A stretch of 64,000 nt of DNA from Glycocaulis profundi (lineage in GTDB: Bacteria; Pseudomonadota; Alphaproteobacteria; Caulobacterales; Maricaulaceae). The notes beneath the pieces are model-generated. The model was not told the origin of the DNA. It ran no database searches and saw only the letters and a program-made list of their open reading frames with translations. How positions within the stretch are numbered: position 1 is the stretch's first letter; the number at the start of each line of letters is the position of its first letter. Location: positions 62,001 to 126,000 of the forward strand of contig VJOU01000001.1 in the NCBI GenBank assembly GCA_007050995.1, in the 5' to 3' direction. Shown one piece after another: positions 2,878-11,951 of this stretch. A program made the translations under genes and the position numbers.

Positions 2878-3771
2878 ATGACGCTCCCCCTTCATCGCCG
2901 CACGGTCCTGAGCGGGCTCGCGGCCTGTGCGGCGGCCGCCGCGCTCCGCCCTTCGGCGTTCGCGGCGGATCCGGGCGACGGCGCTTTCCGGTTCGAACTT
3001 CCGGTCCCGTTCCTTCCAGAGCGCACGATGCGCGTGTGGGGATACGTCCCGGCGCGGGCCTCCGGCCCCGTCGTCATCGTGATGCACGGACAGGGCCGCA
3101 ACGCGGACGAGTATCGGGACTTCTGGATCGAGGGCGCACGCGCCCACGGCCTGACCATTCTCGCCCCTGAATTCGACCGGGACGGCTTTCCGACATCGCG
3201 CGAATACAACATGGGCCGCGTGGCCGAAGCTGATGGCGGCCTGCGCCCCCCAGAGGCGCGGAGCTTCAGCCTGATCGGGCAGGTCTTCGACGCCGCCCGC
3301 GAGCGGCTGGGCGTCGATCCTGACGGCTTCACCCTGTTCGGCCATTCGGCGGGCGCGCAGTACGTCCACCGATACATGCTGTTCACCCCGGACGCGCGCG
3401 CGACGCGCGCCATCGCGGCGAACGCGGGCTGGTACACCCGGCCCGTGTTCGACCAGCCCTATCCCCACGGCGCCGCGGAGGCGGGGCTGACGGACGCGGA
3501 CATCGAGCGGTATCTGGCCGCGCCGCTGACCATCATGCTCGGCGATGCGGACACCGACACCTCGCAGTCCTCGCTGAACACCGATCCGGAGGTCATGGTG
3601 CAGGGACCGCATCGTTTCGCCCGCGGACGGCACGTGTTCGAACTGGCCCGTGACGAAGCGGAGCGCCGGGGCGTCCGCTTCGGCTGGTCTCAGGTGATTG
3701 TTCCTGACGTGGGCCATTCAGGCGATATCATGTCGCGCCACGCGGCGGATCTGATCGGGGGGGCGGGCTGA
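2878..3771 (+). CDS. Tat-exported alpha/beta hydrolase, polyester-depolymerase-like
   Basis: A 297-residue secreted serine hydrolase. The N-terminus HRRTVLSGLAACAAAAAL is a twin-arginine signal with cleavage near AFA-ADPG. The nucleophile elbow is GHSAG, a late DVGHSGD block supplies the likely catalytic His, and the N-terminal MHGQGRNADEY is the oxyanion-loop region. These fit the PHB-depolymerase-like esterase group. An upstream in-frame TTG at 2851 exists, but the ATG at 2878 has GGAG eight bases before it and puts the Tat motif at the very N-terminus. The stop overlaps the next start by one base, so hydrolase and transporter are almost certainly co-translated. Substrate is inferred only; peptide, sugar or siderophore esters are alternatives. 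Confidence 0.8.
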   Translation: MTLPLHRRTVLSGLAACAAAAALRPSAFAADPGDGAFRFELPVPFLPERTMRVWGYVPARASGPVVIVMHGQGRNADEYRDFWIEGARAHGLTILAPEFDRDGFPTSREYNMGRVAEADGGLRPPEARSFSLIGQVFDAARERLGVDPDGFTLFGHSAGAQYVHRYMLFTPDARATRAIAANAGWYTRPVFDQPYPHGAAEAGLTDADIERYLAAPLTIMLGDADTDTSQSSLNTDPEVMVQGPHRFARGRHVFELARDEAERRGVRFGWSQVIVPDVGHSGDIMSRHAADLIGGAG

Positions 3772-5210
3772 TGCGCGCGCGATATCAATGGGTGGGCTTC
3801 TTTGCTGGCCCTGCTCTGGGACTGGCCGTGGCCCTGTTCTTCCGGCCCGAGGGCCTGCCTGAACAGGCCGCTCTGGTCGCCGGGCTGGGCATTCTGATGG
3901 CGGTCTGGTGGGCGACCGAGGCCATCCCGGTCGCCGCGACCGCCTTCGCGCCCCTCATCGTGCTCCCGCTTCTGGGACTGGGCTCGTTCAGCGAGGCCGC
4001 CGCGCCTTACGCCAACCCGGTCATCTTCCTGTTCCTGGGCGGGTTCGTGATCGCGCTGGCGATCGAGCGATGCGGTCTTCACCGCCGGATCGCCTTCGCG
4101 CTGATCCTGGCGATCGGCAGCAACGCCCGGCGGATCATCGCCGGGTTCATGCTGGCCACGGCGCTGGTCAGCATGTGGATATCCAACACCTCGTCGTCTC
4201 TGATGCTGCTGCCCATCGCGGTGTCGGTGGCCGTGGTGATGAGCGAAACCATGCCCGATCTGGACGAAGGCGCGCAGCGCAACTTCGCCACCGCGCTCCT
4301 TCTGGGCGTGGCCTATGCGGCGACCATCGGCGGTCTGGCGACCCTGATCGGCACCCCGCCCAACGCCTTCCTGGCCGCCTTCATGCAGGAGACCTACGAC
4401 ATCGAGATCGGCTTCCTGCGCTGGATGCTGGTCGGCGTGCCGCTGATGATCGTCATGCTGCCCATCGCCTGGTTCATGCTGGTCCGGGTGATCTTCCCGA
4501 TCCGCTTCGAGGTCTCCACCCAGACCATCGATCACATCCGTGAGCTGCGACGGTCGCTGGGCAAACCGTCGGCGGCCGAAATACGCACCGCCGCGCTGTT
4601 CCTGTCCATGGTGACGCTGTGGGTCGCGCGCGAGCCGCTGCAGGCGGCGTTCGGCCTGGAAGCGCTCAGCGACGCGGGCATCGCCATCGCCGCTGCTCTG
4701 GCCGCCTTCCTCATCCCGTCGGGGGAGAAGGGCCGCTCGCTCATGGACTGGGAATCCACCAAACAGCTTCCCTGGGGCGTGCTGATCCTGTTCGGCGGAG
4801 GCCTGTCTCTGGCTGCGGCGGTGTCCAGCTCCGGGCTGGCGCTGTGGATGGGCGAGCAGCTCGCGCCGCTGGGCGCGGGCAACATCCTGCTGCTGATCAT
4901 CGTCGCGACCATTCTGGTGATCTTCCTGACCGAACTGACCAGCAATCTGGGCACCACCGCCACCTTCCTTCCGGTGATCGCGGCCATCGCCATGGAGAGC
5001 GGCGACAACATCATGCTCTATGTCGTGCCGGTCACGCTGGCCGCCAGCTGCGCCTTCATGCTTCCGGTCGCCACCCCGCCCAACGCCATCGTGTTCAGCT
5101 CGGGCCGGGTGTCCATTCCCCAGATGGTCCGGGCCGGGTTCTGGCTGAACATGATCGCGGCGGTGATCGCCACCACCGCGGCCGTCACCCTCGTCCCGCT
5201 GGTCTTCTGA
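3771..5210 (+). CDS. SLC13/DASS family carboxylate transporter
   Basis: A 479-residue inner-membrane carrier of the divalent anion:sodium symporter family (di- and tricarboxylates or sulfate). It carries the family signature SCAFMLPVATPPNAIV starting near residue 426, preceded by the second SNT-type motif ELTSNLGTTATFLPV, and the matching first-half motif WISNTSSSLMLLPIA. This inverted duplication is typical of DASS carriers, and there are about 11-12 hydrophobic segments. The start codon shares one base with the stop of the hydrolase gene. A secreted hydrolase coupled to a carboxylate symporter suggests uptake of the released acid. A paralogue lies at 10428-11951. Confidence 0.9.
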   Translation: MRARYQWVGFFAGPALGLAVALFFRPEGLPEQAALVAGLGILMAVWWATEAIPVAATAFAPLIVLPLLGLGSFSEAAAPYANPVIFLFLGGFVIALAIERCGLHRRIAFALILAIGSNARRIIAGFMLATALVSMWISNTSSSLMLLPIAVSVAVVMSETMPDLDEGAQRNFATALLLGVAYAATIGGLATLIGTPPNAFLAAFMQETYDIEIGFLRWMLVGVPLMIVMLPIAWFMLVRVIFPIRFEVSTQTIDHIRELRRSLGKPSAAEIRTAALFLSMVTLWVAREPLQAAFGLEALSDAGIAIAAALAAFLIPSGEKGRSLMDWESTKQLPWGVLILFGGGLSLAAAVSSSGLALWMGEQLAPLGAGNILLLIIVATILVIFLTELTSNLGTTATFLPVIAAIAMESGDNIMLYVVPVTLAASCAFMLPVATPPNAIVFSSGRVSIPQMVRAGFWLNMIAAVIATTAAVTLVPLVF

Positions 5211-5238: not shown

Positions 5239-6216
5239 ATGTCGGCCTCGACCCCGACCTTCCCGGCGCGCGCCGCCGCCCTGGCTCTGACGACCGTTCT
5301 GCTCGGCGCGCCTCAGGCTCACGCGGAGGACGCGCCGCCTGCCTGCGCGCAGGACGGCGCGAGCGTGCTGTTCGTGGGCAACAGCTATCTGTTCGGCTCC
5401 ACCTCGCCGCTGCGTTACTACCGGGCGGACTCCGTCGCGGATCTTTACGAGACCGGCTTCGGCGGCGTGCCCGCCCTGTTCGGCGTGTTCGCCGACCAGG
5501 CCGGGCTCGAGCTGGACATCAGCCACGCCCTGTCGTCGGGTTTCGGCCTGCATGACCATGTCGAGGCGGGACTGGACCGTTTCACGGCGGGCTGGAACTG
5601 CGCGGCCCTTCAGAGCCTGAGCATGCTCGACCGGGAGCGGCCCGGCGATCCGGGCCGTCTGGTCGAAGCCGCCGGGACGCTCGCCGGCGCGCTCGCCTCG
5701 GGCAACCCGGACACACGCATCACGCTGGTCGCGACGTGGGCGCGCGCCGATTACGTGCATCGCGAGAACCGGCCCTGGTCCGGCGAGGGACTGGAGGCCA
5801 TGACCGCCGACATCCGCGCCGGATACGAACAGGCCGCCGAAGCCATCGGCGCGGTCGAGGACATCGCCCCCGTCGGCGAAGCCTGGCTGGCGGCCATCGG
5901 CGCAGGGCTGGCGGTGGAGAACCCTTACGAGGGCGTCCCCCACGGCATGATCGATCTGTGGGGATACGACCATCACCACGCCAGCGCCCACGGATACTAT
6001 CTCGAGGCCCTGGTCCTGTTCGCGCGCCTGACGGGTCTCGACCCGCGGTCTCTGGGCGAGACGGAGCTGGGCGCGTGGGAGCTCGGCATCGCGCCGGAGG
6101 TCGCCGCAGGGCTTCAGGACGCCGCGTGGCGGGCCTCGGGCCGCGACGCGCTGGAGCCCTTCACCCCCGCCCCCGCGAGCCAGTGGCGGCCCGGTCGGAT
6201 GGACGTCGATCCCTGA
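5239..6216 (+). CDS. secreted SGNH-hydrolase-like protein
   Basis: A 325-residue protein with a signal peptide cleaved after AHA (about residue 29). The mature part opens with VLFVGNSYLFG, resembling block I of DUF4886/SGNH proteins, although the usual Ser-containing GDS is GNS. A late block, GYDHHHASAHGYYLEAL, resembles block V with Asp and His near the end of the domain. I infer an esterase or deacetylase-like fold; catalytic function is not proven. A purine-rich site (AAGGAAAGGA) precedes the ATG. It follows the SLC13 gene by 28 bases, so it probably belongs to the same unit as the hydrolase and transporter. Confidence 0.6.
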   Translation: MSASTPTFPARAAALALTTVLLGAPQAHAEDAPPACAQDGASVLFVGNSYLFGSTSPLRYYRADSVADLYETGFGGVPALFGVFADQAGLELDISHALSSGFGLHDHVEAGLDRFTAGWNCAALQSLSMLDRERPGDPGRLVEAAGTLAGALASGNPDTRITLVATWARADYVHRENRPWSGEGLEAMTADIRAGYEQAAEAIGAVEDIAPVGEAWLAAIGAGLAVENPYEGVPHGMIDLWGYDHHHASAHGYYLEALVLFARLTGLDPRSLGETELGAWELGIAPEVAAGLQDAAWRASGRDALEPFTPAPASQWRPGRMDVDP

Positions 6217-6306
6217 TCGGATCAGGGCCCGTCACGGCGAAGGCAGGAGCTCCCCAAGAAAGCCCCCGGAAGGATAAGACTGCGCACCGATGATGAGGCG
6301 GAGGAA

Positions 6307-6383
<77 letters not shown>

Positions 6384-6465
6384 GTGGTGGCGCTCTCTTA
6401 CATGCGATGGGCGTGGTGTTCAATGCGCCTTTCCGCATCCGGGCGCAGGCGCTTATATCGGGGCC

Positions 6466-8478
6466 ATGCAGACGGCGGACCTCATTCTGTTCGGCGCGGC
6501 CGCGCTGGTGCTCCTGGCGATCGCCGGGGCCGCGGTCACGCGTCAGGCGGGCGCGCCGCTGCTGCTCATCTTCCTGTGCCTGGGCATGCTGGCGGGCGAG
6601 GAGGGGCCGGGCGGGATCGCGTTCCACAATCTCGATCTGGCCTATCTGTTCGGCTCGCTGGCGATCGCCCTGATCCTGTTCAACGGCGGTCTGGGCACGA
6701 AGGCGCGGCGTCTGCGCACCGTGCTCAGGCCTGCCATCTCGCTGGCCACGCTGGGGGTGCTGATCACCGCGGGCGTCACCGCGGTCGCCGCCCACATGCT
6801 GTTCGGGCTGGGCTGGGTGGAGAGCCTGCTGATGGGGGCCATCGTGTCCTCCACGGACGCCGCCGCCGTGCTGATGCTGATCGCGGGGCGGGACCTGAAG
6901 GCCCGGCCCCGGGTGGCGACCACGCTGGAGGCGGAATCAGGGTTCAACGACCCCATGGCGGTGATCCTGGTGGTCACGCTGGTGGAATGGCTGGCCCTGG
7001 GCGACGCGCCCCACCCGGTGTTCGCGCCCCTGATGATCGTCTGGTCCATCATCGCGGGCGGCGCGGTGGGCTGGTTCGGCGGACGGCTGGGCGCGATGAT
7101 CGAACGCAGGGTGGGCCTGCCCATCGGGCTCTATCCCATTTTCGCGATGGCCTTCGCGGTCTTCGTGTTCGCCTTCGCCCAGGTGATCGAGGCGTCCGGT
7201 TTCCTGGCCGTCTATCTGGCGGGGGTGGCGATGGCGTCCGCGCCCAGGCGCCGCGCGGCGGAGGCCACGGCGCGGTTCTCCGACGGTCTGGCCTGGCTGT
7301 CCCAGATCGGCCTGTTCCTGATGCTGGGCCTGCTGATCACGCCGTCCCACGCCATCGCTGTGGCCATGCCCGCGCTGGGGGTGGCCTTCGTTCTGATCTT
7401 CCTGGCCCGCCCCGTCGCGGTGCTGATCTGCCTGCTGCCGGAGAAGTTCCGGCGCAATGAGCGGATCTTCATCTCCTGGATGGGGCTGAGGGGGGCGGTG
7501 CCGATCTTTCTGGGCGCCTTCCCGGTACTGGCGGGGGTGGAGAACGCGAACCTGTATTTCTCCGCCGCCTTTGCGGTGGTGGTCGCCTCTCTGGTCATTC
7601 AGGGCTGGACGGCGGGGCCGGTCTCCCGGCTGGCGGGCGTGGCCCCGCCCCTGCCGCGCGGAGGCCGGATGCGCAATGTGGGCGCGGTGGCCGCGGTGGC
7701 GGCCGGCTTCACCGCCACGACCGCGGCGGTCTCCATCGCGGCGGGGGTGATCGAGCGCGAGACCCCGCTGTTCGCGGCGGGCACCACCGACCAGCTGCGC
7801 ACCGTGGTGCGGCCGCAGGAGGGTCTGATCCCGGATCCGCTGCGGCTGGAATCGCTGCCCGGCGACTGGCTTGAGACCGATCTGGCAGAGCGCCGCCAGC
7901 TCTTCGCCGAGATCGTGGCGGGGCTGATCGCGGCGGAGAACGCGCGCATCCTGTCCGACCGCGCCGCGCTGGAGGCCATGCGCGCCACCGAGGCGGCGGG
8001 CCGGGTCCTGCCGCTGAGCCAGCAGGCCCGGCGCGACGCCATCGCCCGGCGCTATGGCGGCCAGTACGGGGATCTGGACGATCTTCTGGCCCGGGCGGAC
8101 ATCATCCCGCCCTCGCTGGCGATCTCGCAGGCCGTGGTGGCGACCGGCTGGGGCAACGCGGCGGCGGCGCGCGAGCGCAACGCCCTGTTCGGGCGGGCGG
8201 GTCCGGCCGAAGGCCGCTTCGCGTCGCTGTCCGCCTCCGCGTCCGACTATGTCGAGCTGCTCAATACCCACCGTGATTTCGCGGGCTTCCGCGCCCAGCG
8301 CGCCCGCCTGCGCGAGCGCAACGCGCCGGTCACGGGGACCGCCCTGCTCGAACAGATCCGGCCCTATGCGGCCGAGGGCGACGCCTACATCAATCAGGTG
8401 CGCTCGATCCTGACCGGGGCGGACGATCTGGAACGGTTCGACGCCCGGCCCGCGACCGCCCCGGCGCCGGGAAGCTAG
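6466..8478 (+). CDS. CPA1 cation/proton antiporter fused to Bax-like glucosaminidase domain
   Basis: A 670-residue fusion. Residues 1 to about 385 are a CPA1 antiporter of the NhaP2/CvrA type, with SSTDAAAV and [13 protein letters not shown] ion-site motifs and about 12 membrane segments. The usual cytoplasmic TrkA-C domain is absent. An extra hydrophobic helix follows at about 405-425 ([20 protein letters not shown]). Residues from about 440 to 660 match the E. coli Bax/glucosaminidase family: [26 protein letters not shown] is followed by a [16 protein letters not shown] core and YVELLNTH near the end. In Bax the core reads QAAxESGWG; here it is QAVVATGWG, so the catalytic Glu is Ala559 and the domain is predicted inactive. 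An internal ATG at 7669 with GGAGG four bases upstream could give a separate product. The gene converges with the ABC ATPase, overlapping four bases. Confidence 0.85.
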
Positions 8479-10427: not shown

Positions 10428-11951
10428 TTGGCTTTCACGCTGACGCCGAAGCGCATCGGACTGCTGACGGGGATCGCCGTGGCCGCGGGGCTTCAGCTCG
10501 TCCCCGTGCCCGAGGGGCTGAGCCGCGAGGCGTGGCTGCTGGCCTCCTTCATGCTGCTGATGGCGTGCTGGTGGGCGACCGAGGCCATCCCCATCGCGGC
10601 CACCGCGCTGGTCCCGCTCGCCATCTTTCCCATCTTCGGCATCGTGAGCGTGCGCGAGGCGTCGCTGCCTTACGCCGATCCCATCGTCATGCTGCTGCTG
10701 GGCGGGTTCATCATCGCGCTGGCGGTGGAGAGGTGGAATCTGCATGCGCGCATCGCGCTGCACGTGGTGCTGCGCTTCGGGGCCAAGCCCGCCCTGCTGA
10801 TCCTGGGCTTCATGGTGGCGTCGTCCGCCCTGTCGATGTGGATCTCCAACACCGCCACCACGCTGATGATGATCCCCATCGCGCTCAAAGTCGCCCAGAG
10901 CATGGAGAAGGAGGGCGTGGACATCCGCATGTTCGCGCCCGCGCTCGCCCTGGCCATCGCCTATTCGGCCTCCATCGGCGGGCTGGGCACGCCGGTGGGC
11001 ACGCCATCCAACCTGATCGGCATCGGCTATCTGGAGAACACGCTGGAGCGCACCATCAGCTTTCCCCAGTGGATGATGATCGGTCTGCCCGCCGTCTTCC
11101 TGATCATCCCCGCGGCCTGGTTCATCCTCACCCGGCTGGCCTTCAAGGTGGACACGACCGCGAAAGGCGGCGCGGAGGGTCATGAGGCGGTGCGCCGCGA
11201 GCTGGTGGCGCTGGGGCGGATGACCACGCCGGAAAAGCGCGTGGCGGCCCTGTTCGGCACGGTGGCGCTTTTGTGGATGGGACGGGAGCTCAACTTCGGC
11301 GGCGAGCTGACTTTCGGGTGGAATCCGCTGCTGGCCTGGCTGTCGGGCGCGCTCGACCTGCCGGTGACGCTGGCGCTCAACGACACCCAGATCGCGGTGG
11401 CGGGCGCGCTGGCGACCTTCCTGGTCCCTGCGGGAGGCCGTGATGAAGACGGGCACAAGCGCGCGGGCGTGGCCCTGATGGACTGGGACGGCACGCGCCG
11501 CCTGCCCTGGGCGGTGCTGATCCTGTTCGGGGGCGGCATCTCCATGGCCGGGGCGATGACCGCGACCGGGCTCGACCAGTGGCTGGGCGACCGGCTCTCC
11601 ATCGTGGCGGGCCTCCCGGTACCGCTGGTGGTGCTGATCGTGGCCTATATCGTGGTCTTCCTGACCGAGCTGACCTCGAACGTGGCGACGACCACCGCCT
11701 TCATGCCGGTGCTGGGCGCGCTGGCCGCGGCCATGGGCATCCCGGCCGAACAGCTCATCATCCCGATCGCGCTGGCGGCGAGCTGCGCCTTCATGCTGCC
11801 CGTGGCGACCGCGCCCAACGCCATCGTCTATGGCGGAGGCGCGGTGACCATGGCCCAGATGATCAAGGCGGGCTTCCGCATCAACCTGGTCGCCGCCCCC
11901 CTGATCGCGCTGGTCTCCAGCCTGATCGCCCCGATGGTGTTTCCCGGTTAG
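10428..11951 (+). CDS. SLC13/DASS family carboxylate transporter, second copy
   Basis: A 507-residue inner-membrane symporter paralogous to the protein at 3771-5210. It has the same two-repeat architecture, with WISNTATTLMMIPIA and ELTSNVATTTAFMPV and the signature SCAFMLPVATAPNAIVYG. The start is TTG at 10428, supported by GGGGAGGA nine bases upstream; no better ATG lies nearby. It has no hydrolase partner, unlike the first copy, and lies in front of polA. Expected substrate: di- or tricarboxylate with sodium. A loop insertion (about residues 330-350, GGRDEDGHKRAG) distinguishes it from the first copy. Confidence 0.9.
   Translation: MAFTLTPKRIGLLTGIAVAAGLQLVPVPEGLSREAWLLASFMLLMACWWATEAIPIAATALVPLAIFPIFGIVSVREASLPYADPIVMLLLGGFIIALAVERWNLHARIALHVVLRFGAKPALLILGFMVASSALSMWISNTATTLMMIPIALKVAQSMEKEGVDIRMFAPALALAIAYSASIGGLGTPVGTPSNLIGIGYLENTLERTISFPQWMMIGLPAVFLIIPAAWFILTRLAFKVDTTAKGGAEGHEAVRRELVALGRMTTPEKRVAALFGTVALLWMGRELNFGGELTFGWNPLLAWLSGALDLPVTLALNDTQIAVAGALATFLVPAGGRDEDGHKRAGVALMDWDGTRRLPWAVLILFGGGISMAGAMTATGLDQWLGDRLSIVAGLPVPLVVLIVAYIVVFLTELTSNVATTTAFMPVLGALAAAMGIPAEQLIIPIALAASCAFMLPVATAPNAIVYGGGAVTMAQMIKAGFRINLVAAPLIALVSSLIAPMVFPG

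Follow-up and report, generated by a model that had tools for sequence, protein, structure and literature searches.

In a 64,000-nucleotide stretch of the Glycocaulis profundi genome (contig VJOU01000001.1, positions 62,001 to 126,000; hereafter the window; the genome, 3.63 Mb in all, consists of 356 contigs), the forward-strand gene at 6466–8478 joins a cation/proton antiporter to a predicted additional membrane helix and a Bax-like glucosaminidase domain that lacks the catalytic glutamate. It is one uninterrupted gene (670 amino acids plus stop, ATG start, zero internal stops) and constitutes a new domain architecture, real and conserved, within a known transporter family. We consider it fairly probable that the added part is a periplasmic pseudoenzyme module, regulatory or anchoring in function, on a working K+/H+ antiporter.

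Residues 15–386 (6508–7623) match the Pfam family Na_H_Exchanger (PF00999, E 8e-52) and residues 2–399 the NCBIfam profile NF003715 for potassium/proton antiporters, with 474.7 bits against a cut-off of 309. Together with the structural matches to NhaP given below, they assign the domain to the CPA1/NhaP type and suggest an antiporter of the NhaP2/YcgO kind, exchanging K+(Na+) for H+. The C-terminal domain (residues 432–670, 7759–8475) contains a Bax-like core at 475–648, recognised by the NCBIfam profile for "protein bax" (NF007681, E 2e-21, 76.4 bits, hence below the equivalog cut-off of 193), and in it a match to Glucosaminidase (PF01832) at 545–609 (E 9.1e-8, 33.2 bits with a cut-off of 30.2), the sole wall-related domain in a Pfam scan of the protein. 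Both Pfam families were matched in 14/14 fused members scanned. A sequence-only reading of the window had proposed this layout of antiporter, helix and Bax-family domain in a single 2 kb frame, and the uninterrupted frame and the profile matches to both parts, PF01832 above its cut-off included, bear it out. Its claim that the usual TrkA-C part is missing holds as well: the NF003715 match goes no further than position 398 of the 595 in the profile. By contrast, a second antiporter of the same genome (paralogue L002, 1480–3297 (+) on contig C98, 606 amino acids, 49% core identity) matches the profile end to end (positions 3–593) and includes a CorC domain match below cut-off. By this comparison, the cytoplasmic RCK/CorC C-terminal regulator is absent from the fused protein. 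The same-genus genomes G001–G005 hold, by whole-protein search, the fused antiporter only and no second one.

An assembly or frameshift error is rejected because 28 distinct proteins share the fusion (the sequence-only reading had named an assembly or sequencing error as a danger to its interpretation); in addition, no stop lies inside any fusion match in a search of 299 genomes of the order. Distinctness was judged over the last 250 residues of the tails after removal of identical ones (L005 = L039, L003 = L034 and L006 = L036 over the last 300 residues). Searching with the whole protein found the fusion in 9 of 41 genomes. In an alignment of 14 full-length proteins, the 13 relatives are 47–71% identical to the window's protein; Maricaulis, Oceanicaulis, Glycocaulis and Alkalicaulis figure among the named records. 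Of the 299 order genomes, 26 had a match to a profile built from the C-terminal domain; 25 of the 299 carry the full fusion, in frames of 649–765 amino acids that include the antiporter, and genome G170 (L084), with a weak partial match only, is excluded from all counts. Matches to this profile were also obtained in 168/385 genomes of a class sample and 126/398 of a phylum sample (own genome included in each), and all 67 loci read from these samples outside the order were of the standalone Bax type with no antiporter alongside; loci L085–L151 gave no antiporter match at E 1e-3 in frames above 70 amino acids, with flanks of about 1.5–4 kb. A related state with the two parts encoded side by side was likewise rejected, there being no Bax-type match at the unfused antiporter loci (E 1e-5, frames above 150 amino acids, flanks of about 1.5–4 kb), and so were other kinds of fusion: 12 loci with frames of 487–750 amino acids contain 13 Bax-type domains, each with the Glu and none with an antiporter. 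Across 26 genomes, namely the own one and those of 25 relatives, 7 had a PF01832 match, over cut-off in four of the seven; all seven matches fell in fused genes and none outside them, the search being confined to this family among wall hydrolases. As separate observations, several genomes of the class sample hold two or three Bax-type matches, and the alphaproteobacterial locus L148 has two Bax-type proteins in neighbouring frames, both with Glu.

Enzymes of glycoside hydrolase family 73 (GH73) have an invariant Glu that likely serves as general acid; in several of them a β-hairpin bears a second one (PMC4752226, PMC9108991). Alignment with standalone domains confirms what the sequence-only reading had asserted, namely that Ala559 (codon 8140–8142) occupies the alignment column where the enzymes have their catalytic Glu. 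Across the 28 fused proteins, this column holds 26 Ala, one Ser (L081), one Thr (L010) and zero Glu (24 Ala, 1 Ser and 1 Thr in 26 alignment rows; Ala in both L032 and L035, from a separate alignment). Glu is found there in 55/55 aligned standalone Bax-type domains and, as read by eye from the translations, in 13/13 further ones from 12 loci, 68/68 in total. For the 55 aligned ones, the best-scoring loci were taken from the 167 class and 125 phylum genomes matched (own genome excluded; the samples overlap), and they form 49 clusters at 90% identity; for L122, whose match contains a reported stop, only the open part was used. Additional letters conserved in the enzymes are lost in the fused group, with 564, 598, 605 and 635 among the positions concerned; G561, W562, G563, N572, G576, R609 and R612 are retained, and L517, R528, R571 and F605 are conserved in the fused and not the standalone proteins. 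FlgJ (3k3t, 2zyc, 3vwo; GH73) is closely similar in the core around the catalytic position, and entry 3k3t shares both the Ala and the Thr of the fused domain, whereas 2zyc and 3vwo have the catalytic Glu and FlgJ has no transporter part. The Ala-bearing 3k3t we take to be a deliberate mutant. The change of S560 to Thr is uninformative on its own, since a Thr at this place also occurs in FlgJ entries whose Glu is intact.

The second change concerns the segment (8194–8217) at which GH73 enzymes have the β-hairpin with the second catalytic residue. Its length spans 14–28 residues among 26 fused proteins, with a median of 18, and 20–41 among the 55 standalone ones, with a median of 35; the two ranges overlap, and the comparison is one of segment length. 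Relative to the Bax-type GH73 glucosaminidases (NF007681, PF01832), with 55 standalone members of which it was aligned, the fused domain is homologous over residues 475–648 and differs in the absent catalytic Glu, in a hairpin segment shorter in most members and in being joined to a transporter. Because Glu is absent from 28/28 fused proteins and the hairpin segment is shorter in most, the loss of hydrolysis appears well supported by sequence comparison. The sequence-only reading had expected the domain to bind peptidoglycan but not cut it; the second part would stand, but the first does not follow, given the reduced hairpin and the changes at other conserved positions. The longest fused segments belong to L010 (23 residues), L069 (26) and L072 (28), and since these proteins branch first within the fused group of the midpoint-rooted domain tree, the sequences suggest that Glu was lost first and that the hairpin shrank further later.

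Continued wall cutting along a different route, with a migrated acidic residue, could be argued from the Asp or Glu present at aligned positions 564–567 in 17/26 fused rows (the window's protein not among them), and migrated catalytic residues may occur in pseudoenzymes (PMC10211241). We regard it as very improbable: besides the Glu missing in all fused proteins and the reduced hairpin segment, 9/26 rows, the window's included, have no acidic residue anywhere at 559–569. The ratio of non-synonymous to synonymous substitution rates (dN/dS) over seven pairs is 0.063–0.271 for the domain vs 0.025–0.068 for the antiporter, with synonymous sites partly saturated. By this measure purifying selection acts on the domain in the seven pairs tested, which marks it as a maintained pseudoenzyme. 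Its faster evolution compared to the antiporter, along with the presence of the fusion in only 25 of the 299 order genomes, would fit a decaying leftover of a chance fusion, without function of its own; yet the low dN/dS of the domain, the several residues invariant in 26/26 fused rows of its alignment and the lack of stops inside the matches of the order search render this explanation highly unlikely.

Both phylogenies separate the fused proteins from all others. In the domain tree (81 C-terminal domains, without L032 and L035), 26 fused members lie on one side of a branch with support 100/100; in the antiporter-core tree (54 rows), 28 do so with support 100/99. We infer a single origin of the fusion. 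The nearest unfused row of the antiporter tree, L040, is cut by a contig end; the next nearest, L047, L048 and L051 (the antiporter of L051 being split across two frames), end 3–7 residues past the antiporter core, and the branches joining nearby unfused rows to the fused group have support of 94/85 and 91/90. That a tail-less antiporter gained the helix and the Bax-like domain once fits these data, though it is not proven by them, and replacement of a lost tail is only one reading of the tail-less relatives. Several unfused antiporters have tails of 90–107 residues; the one tested, of L049, is TrkA_C. Tail-less antiporters are found elsewhere in the tree too (L011, L012, L045, Synechococcus), and tails were therefore gained or lost more than once.

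The AlphaFold2 (AF2) model of the full-length protein shows the antiporter helices, a helix at residues 401–431 (7666–7758) and a helical domain, and it matches the archaeal NhaP structures 4cz9 and 4cz8 (E 2.4e-13 and 2.6e-13). The domain modelled alone reaches a predicted local distance difference test (pLDDT) of 94.1 and a predicted template modelling score (pTM) of 0.91; a single-sequence search of the domain against the PDB gave zero matches. According to PMC11808508, YcgO has an N-out/C-in topology with a cytoplasmic tail. Because a single helix is added to a 13-helix N-out/C-in core as in YcgO, the Bax-like domain of the fused protein would be placed in the periplasm. The membrane helix that the sequence-only reading had expected at 400–430 is recovered both in the model and in hydropathy: between the core and the domain, the 19-mer with the highest hydropathy averages at least 1.6 in 24/28 fused proteins, the lowest value being 1.36. 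The charges around this fourteenth helix decide little, their pattern being weak or mixed in many members.

At the presumed ion site, D131, E155, E157 and D162 are invariant in 14/14 fused proteins and can be matched, by sequence, to D133, E155, E157 and D162 of YcgO (PMC11808508); the ion-site residues thus appear intact in the fused antiporter. Likeness to NhaP2/CvrA/YcgO (PRK05326, CPA1) therefore extends from the NF003715 score of the core to the invariant acidic residues and the NhaP-like model, and it ends at the C-terminus, where the helix with the Bax-like domain is found and the RCK/CorC tail that YcgO has in the cytoplasm (PMC11808508) is absent.

Several observations weigh against the periplasmic pseudoenzyme module on a working antiporter as here understood. 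Besides the acidic residues at 564–567, the faster evolution of the domain, the scattered tail-less antiporters and the indistinct charges around helix 14 already described, the branch that places tail-less relatives beside the fused group (91/90) is not strongly supported. The AF2 model of the whole protein scores moderately (pLDDT 79, pTM 0.69), with other models down to 51.9. The top Foldseek matches of the domain, the GH73 enzymes Auto (3fi7) and AtlA (7qfu), are weak (E 0.009 and 0.029; TM score 0.37–0.38 by query length), no domain match being at or below E 0.001. Auto and AtlA, which were also matched by profile, differ from the fused domain in their pair of catalytic Glu, one of which lies on the helix and the other on the hairpin (PMC9108991). 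Lastly, the hairpin forms half of the GH73 groove (PMC4752226, PMC9108991), and its apparent shortening makes canonical glycan binding less likely.

Since the usual tail is missing and a selected, probably non-catalytic and probably periplasmic module is found in its place, a periplasmic sensor or anchor is proposed. In this mechanism, the C-terminus would cross the membrane once more instead of carrying the cytoplasmic RCK/CorC regulator, and it would end on the periplasmic side in a domain that descends from a GH73 glucosaminidase of the Bax type, without the catalytic Glu and in most members with about half the hairpin segment. The pseudoenzyme would serve as non-catalytic sensor or anchor by binding wall glycan or an envelope protein, and the bound state would be relayed via helix 14 to the antiporter, in the role of the cytoplasmic tail of YcgO; one conceivable output is K+ efflux matched to the envelope or turgor state. 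In YcgO, the tail is the site where PtsN inhibits K+ efflux, and activation through the RCK part has been proposed in a model (PMC11808508). Removal of the tail from Vc-NhaP2 lowers the activity and the K+ affinity (PMC6567090). An anchor or gate role of the fused domain is a reasonable inference.

Wall binding by the domain is plausible; its ligand may be peptidoglycan or a protein, and the shortened hairpin cautions against assuming glycan binding. In its most specific form, the proposal becomes that of a cell-wall-gated K+/H+ antiporter, in which the dead glucosaminidase grips glycan strands and relays wall spacing or tension via the fourteenth helix to K+ efflux, replacing control by RCK; we view this form as speculative and on present evidence rather improbable. 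Alternatively, the domain could bind glycan strands or a wall protein solely to fix the position of the antiporter, with no control of its rate. The Bax/GH73 ancestry and the core letters kept in the domain are in line with such an anchor, but the groove-forming segment is shorter in most members, and we assign it a low probability. A third possibility, to which we give similarly little credence, is a domain that has lost its glycan site and now binds a protein, perhaps an adaptor or an enzyme of the envelope, so that it serves for docking or inhibition. The shortened hairpin as well as the conserved residues peculiar to the fused group (L517, R528, R571, F605) are consistent with it; however, no likely partner gene adjoins, the convergent ABC-transporter gene, which meets the fused gene at 8475 in the window, being what is common to at least 5 of 9 loci compared. 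The broader reading, a regulatory or anchoring pseudoenzyme module in the periplasm, is retained as the favoured one. As regards manner of working, the LytM domain of EnvC, a dead hydrolase domain acting as regulator, and MotB, through which a membrane machine is tied to the wall, offer comparisons; their folds are unrelated to the fused domain, and neither is known to be on an ion antiporter.

Elsewhere around the gene, a tRNA-Arg (6307–6383, opposite strand) precedes it. Two apparently spurious open frames on the forward strand, 6290–6673 and 6306–7460, cross this tRNA and reach into the antiporter gene outside its reading frame. Transporters of the sodium:sulfate symporter family (PF00939) flank the fused gene on both sides (3771–5210 (+) and 10428–11951 (+)), and a 325-residue open frame at 5239–6216 (+) has no Pfam match at E 0.001.

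A literature search, with most subscription journals outside its coverage, returned nothing on an antiporter–Bax fusion; "antiporter" and "PF01832" co-occur in PMC12352652 and PMC4241727 in unrelated uses, and protein databases may list the architecture uncommented. The fused gene has importance as a clear example from nature of a wall hydrolase that became a conserved pseudoenzyme, the Ala of which is shared with the FlgJ entry 3k3t. An unsettled question is how bacteria keep their ion content and turgor in line with the condition of the cell wall, and a transporter that carries its own module derived from a wall enzyme would offer a one-gene system for studying it.
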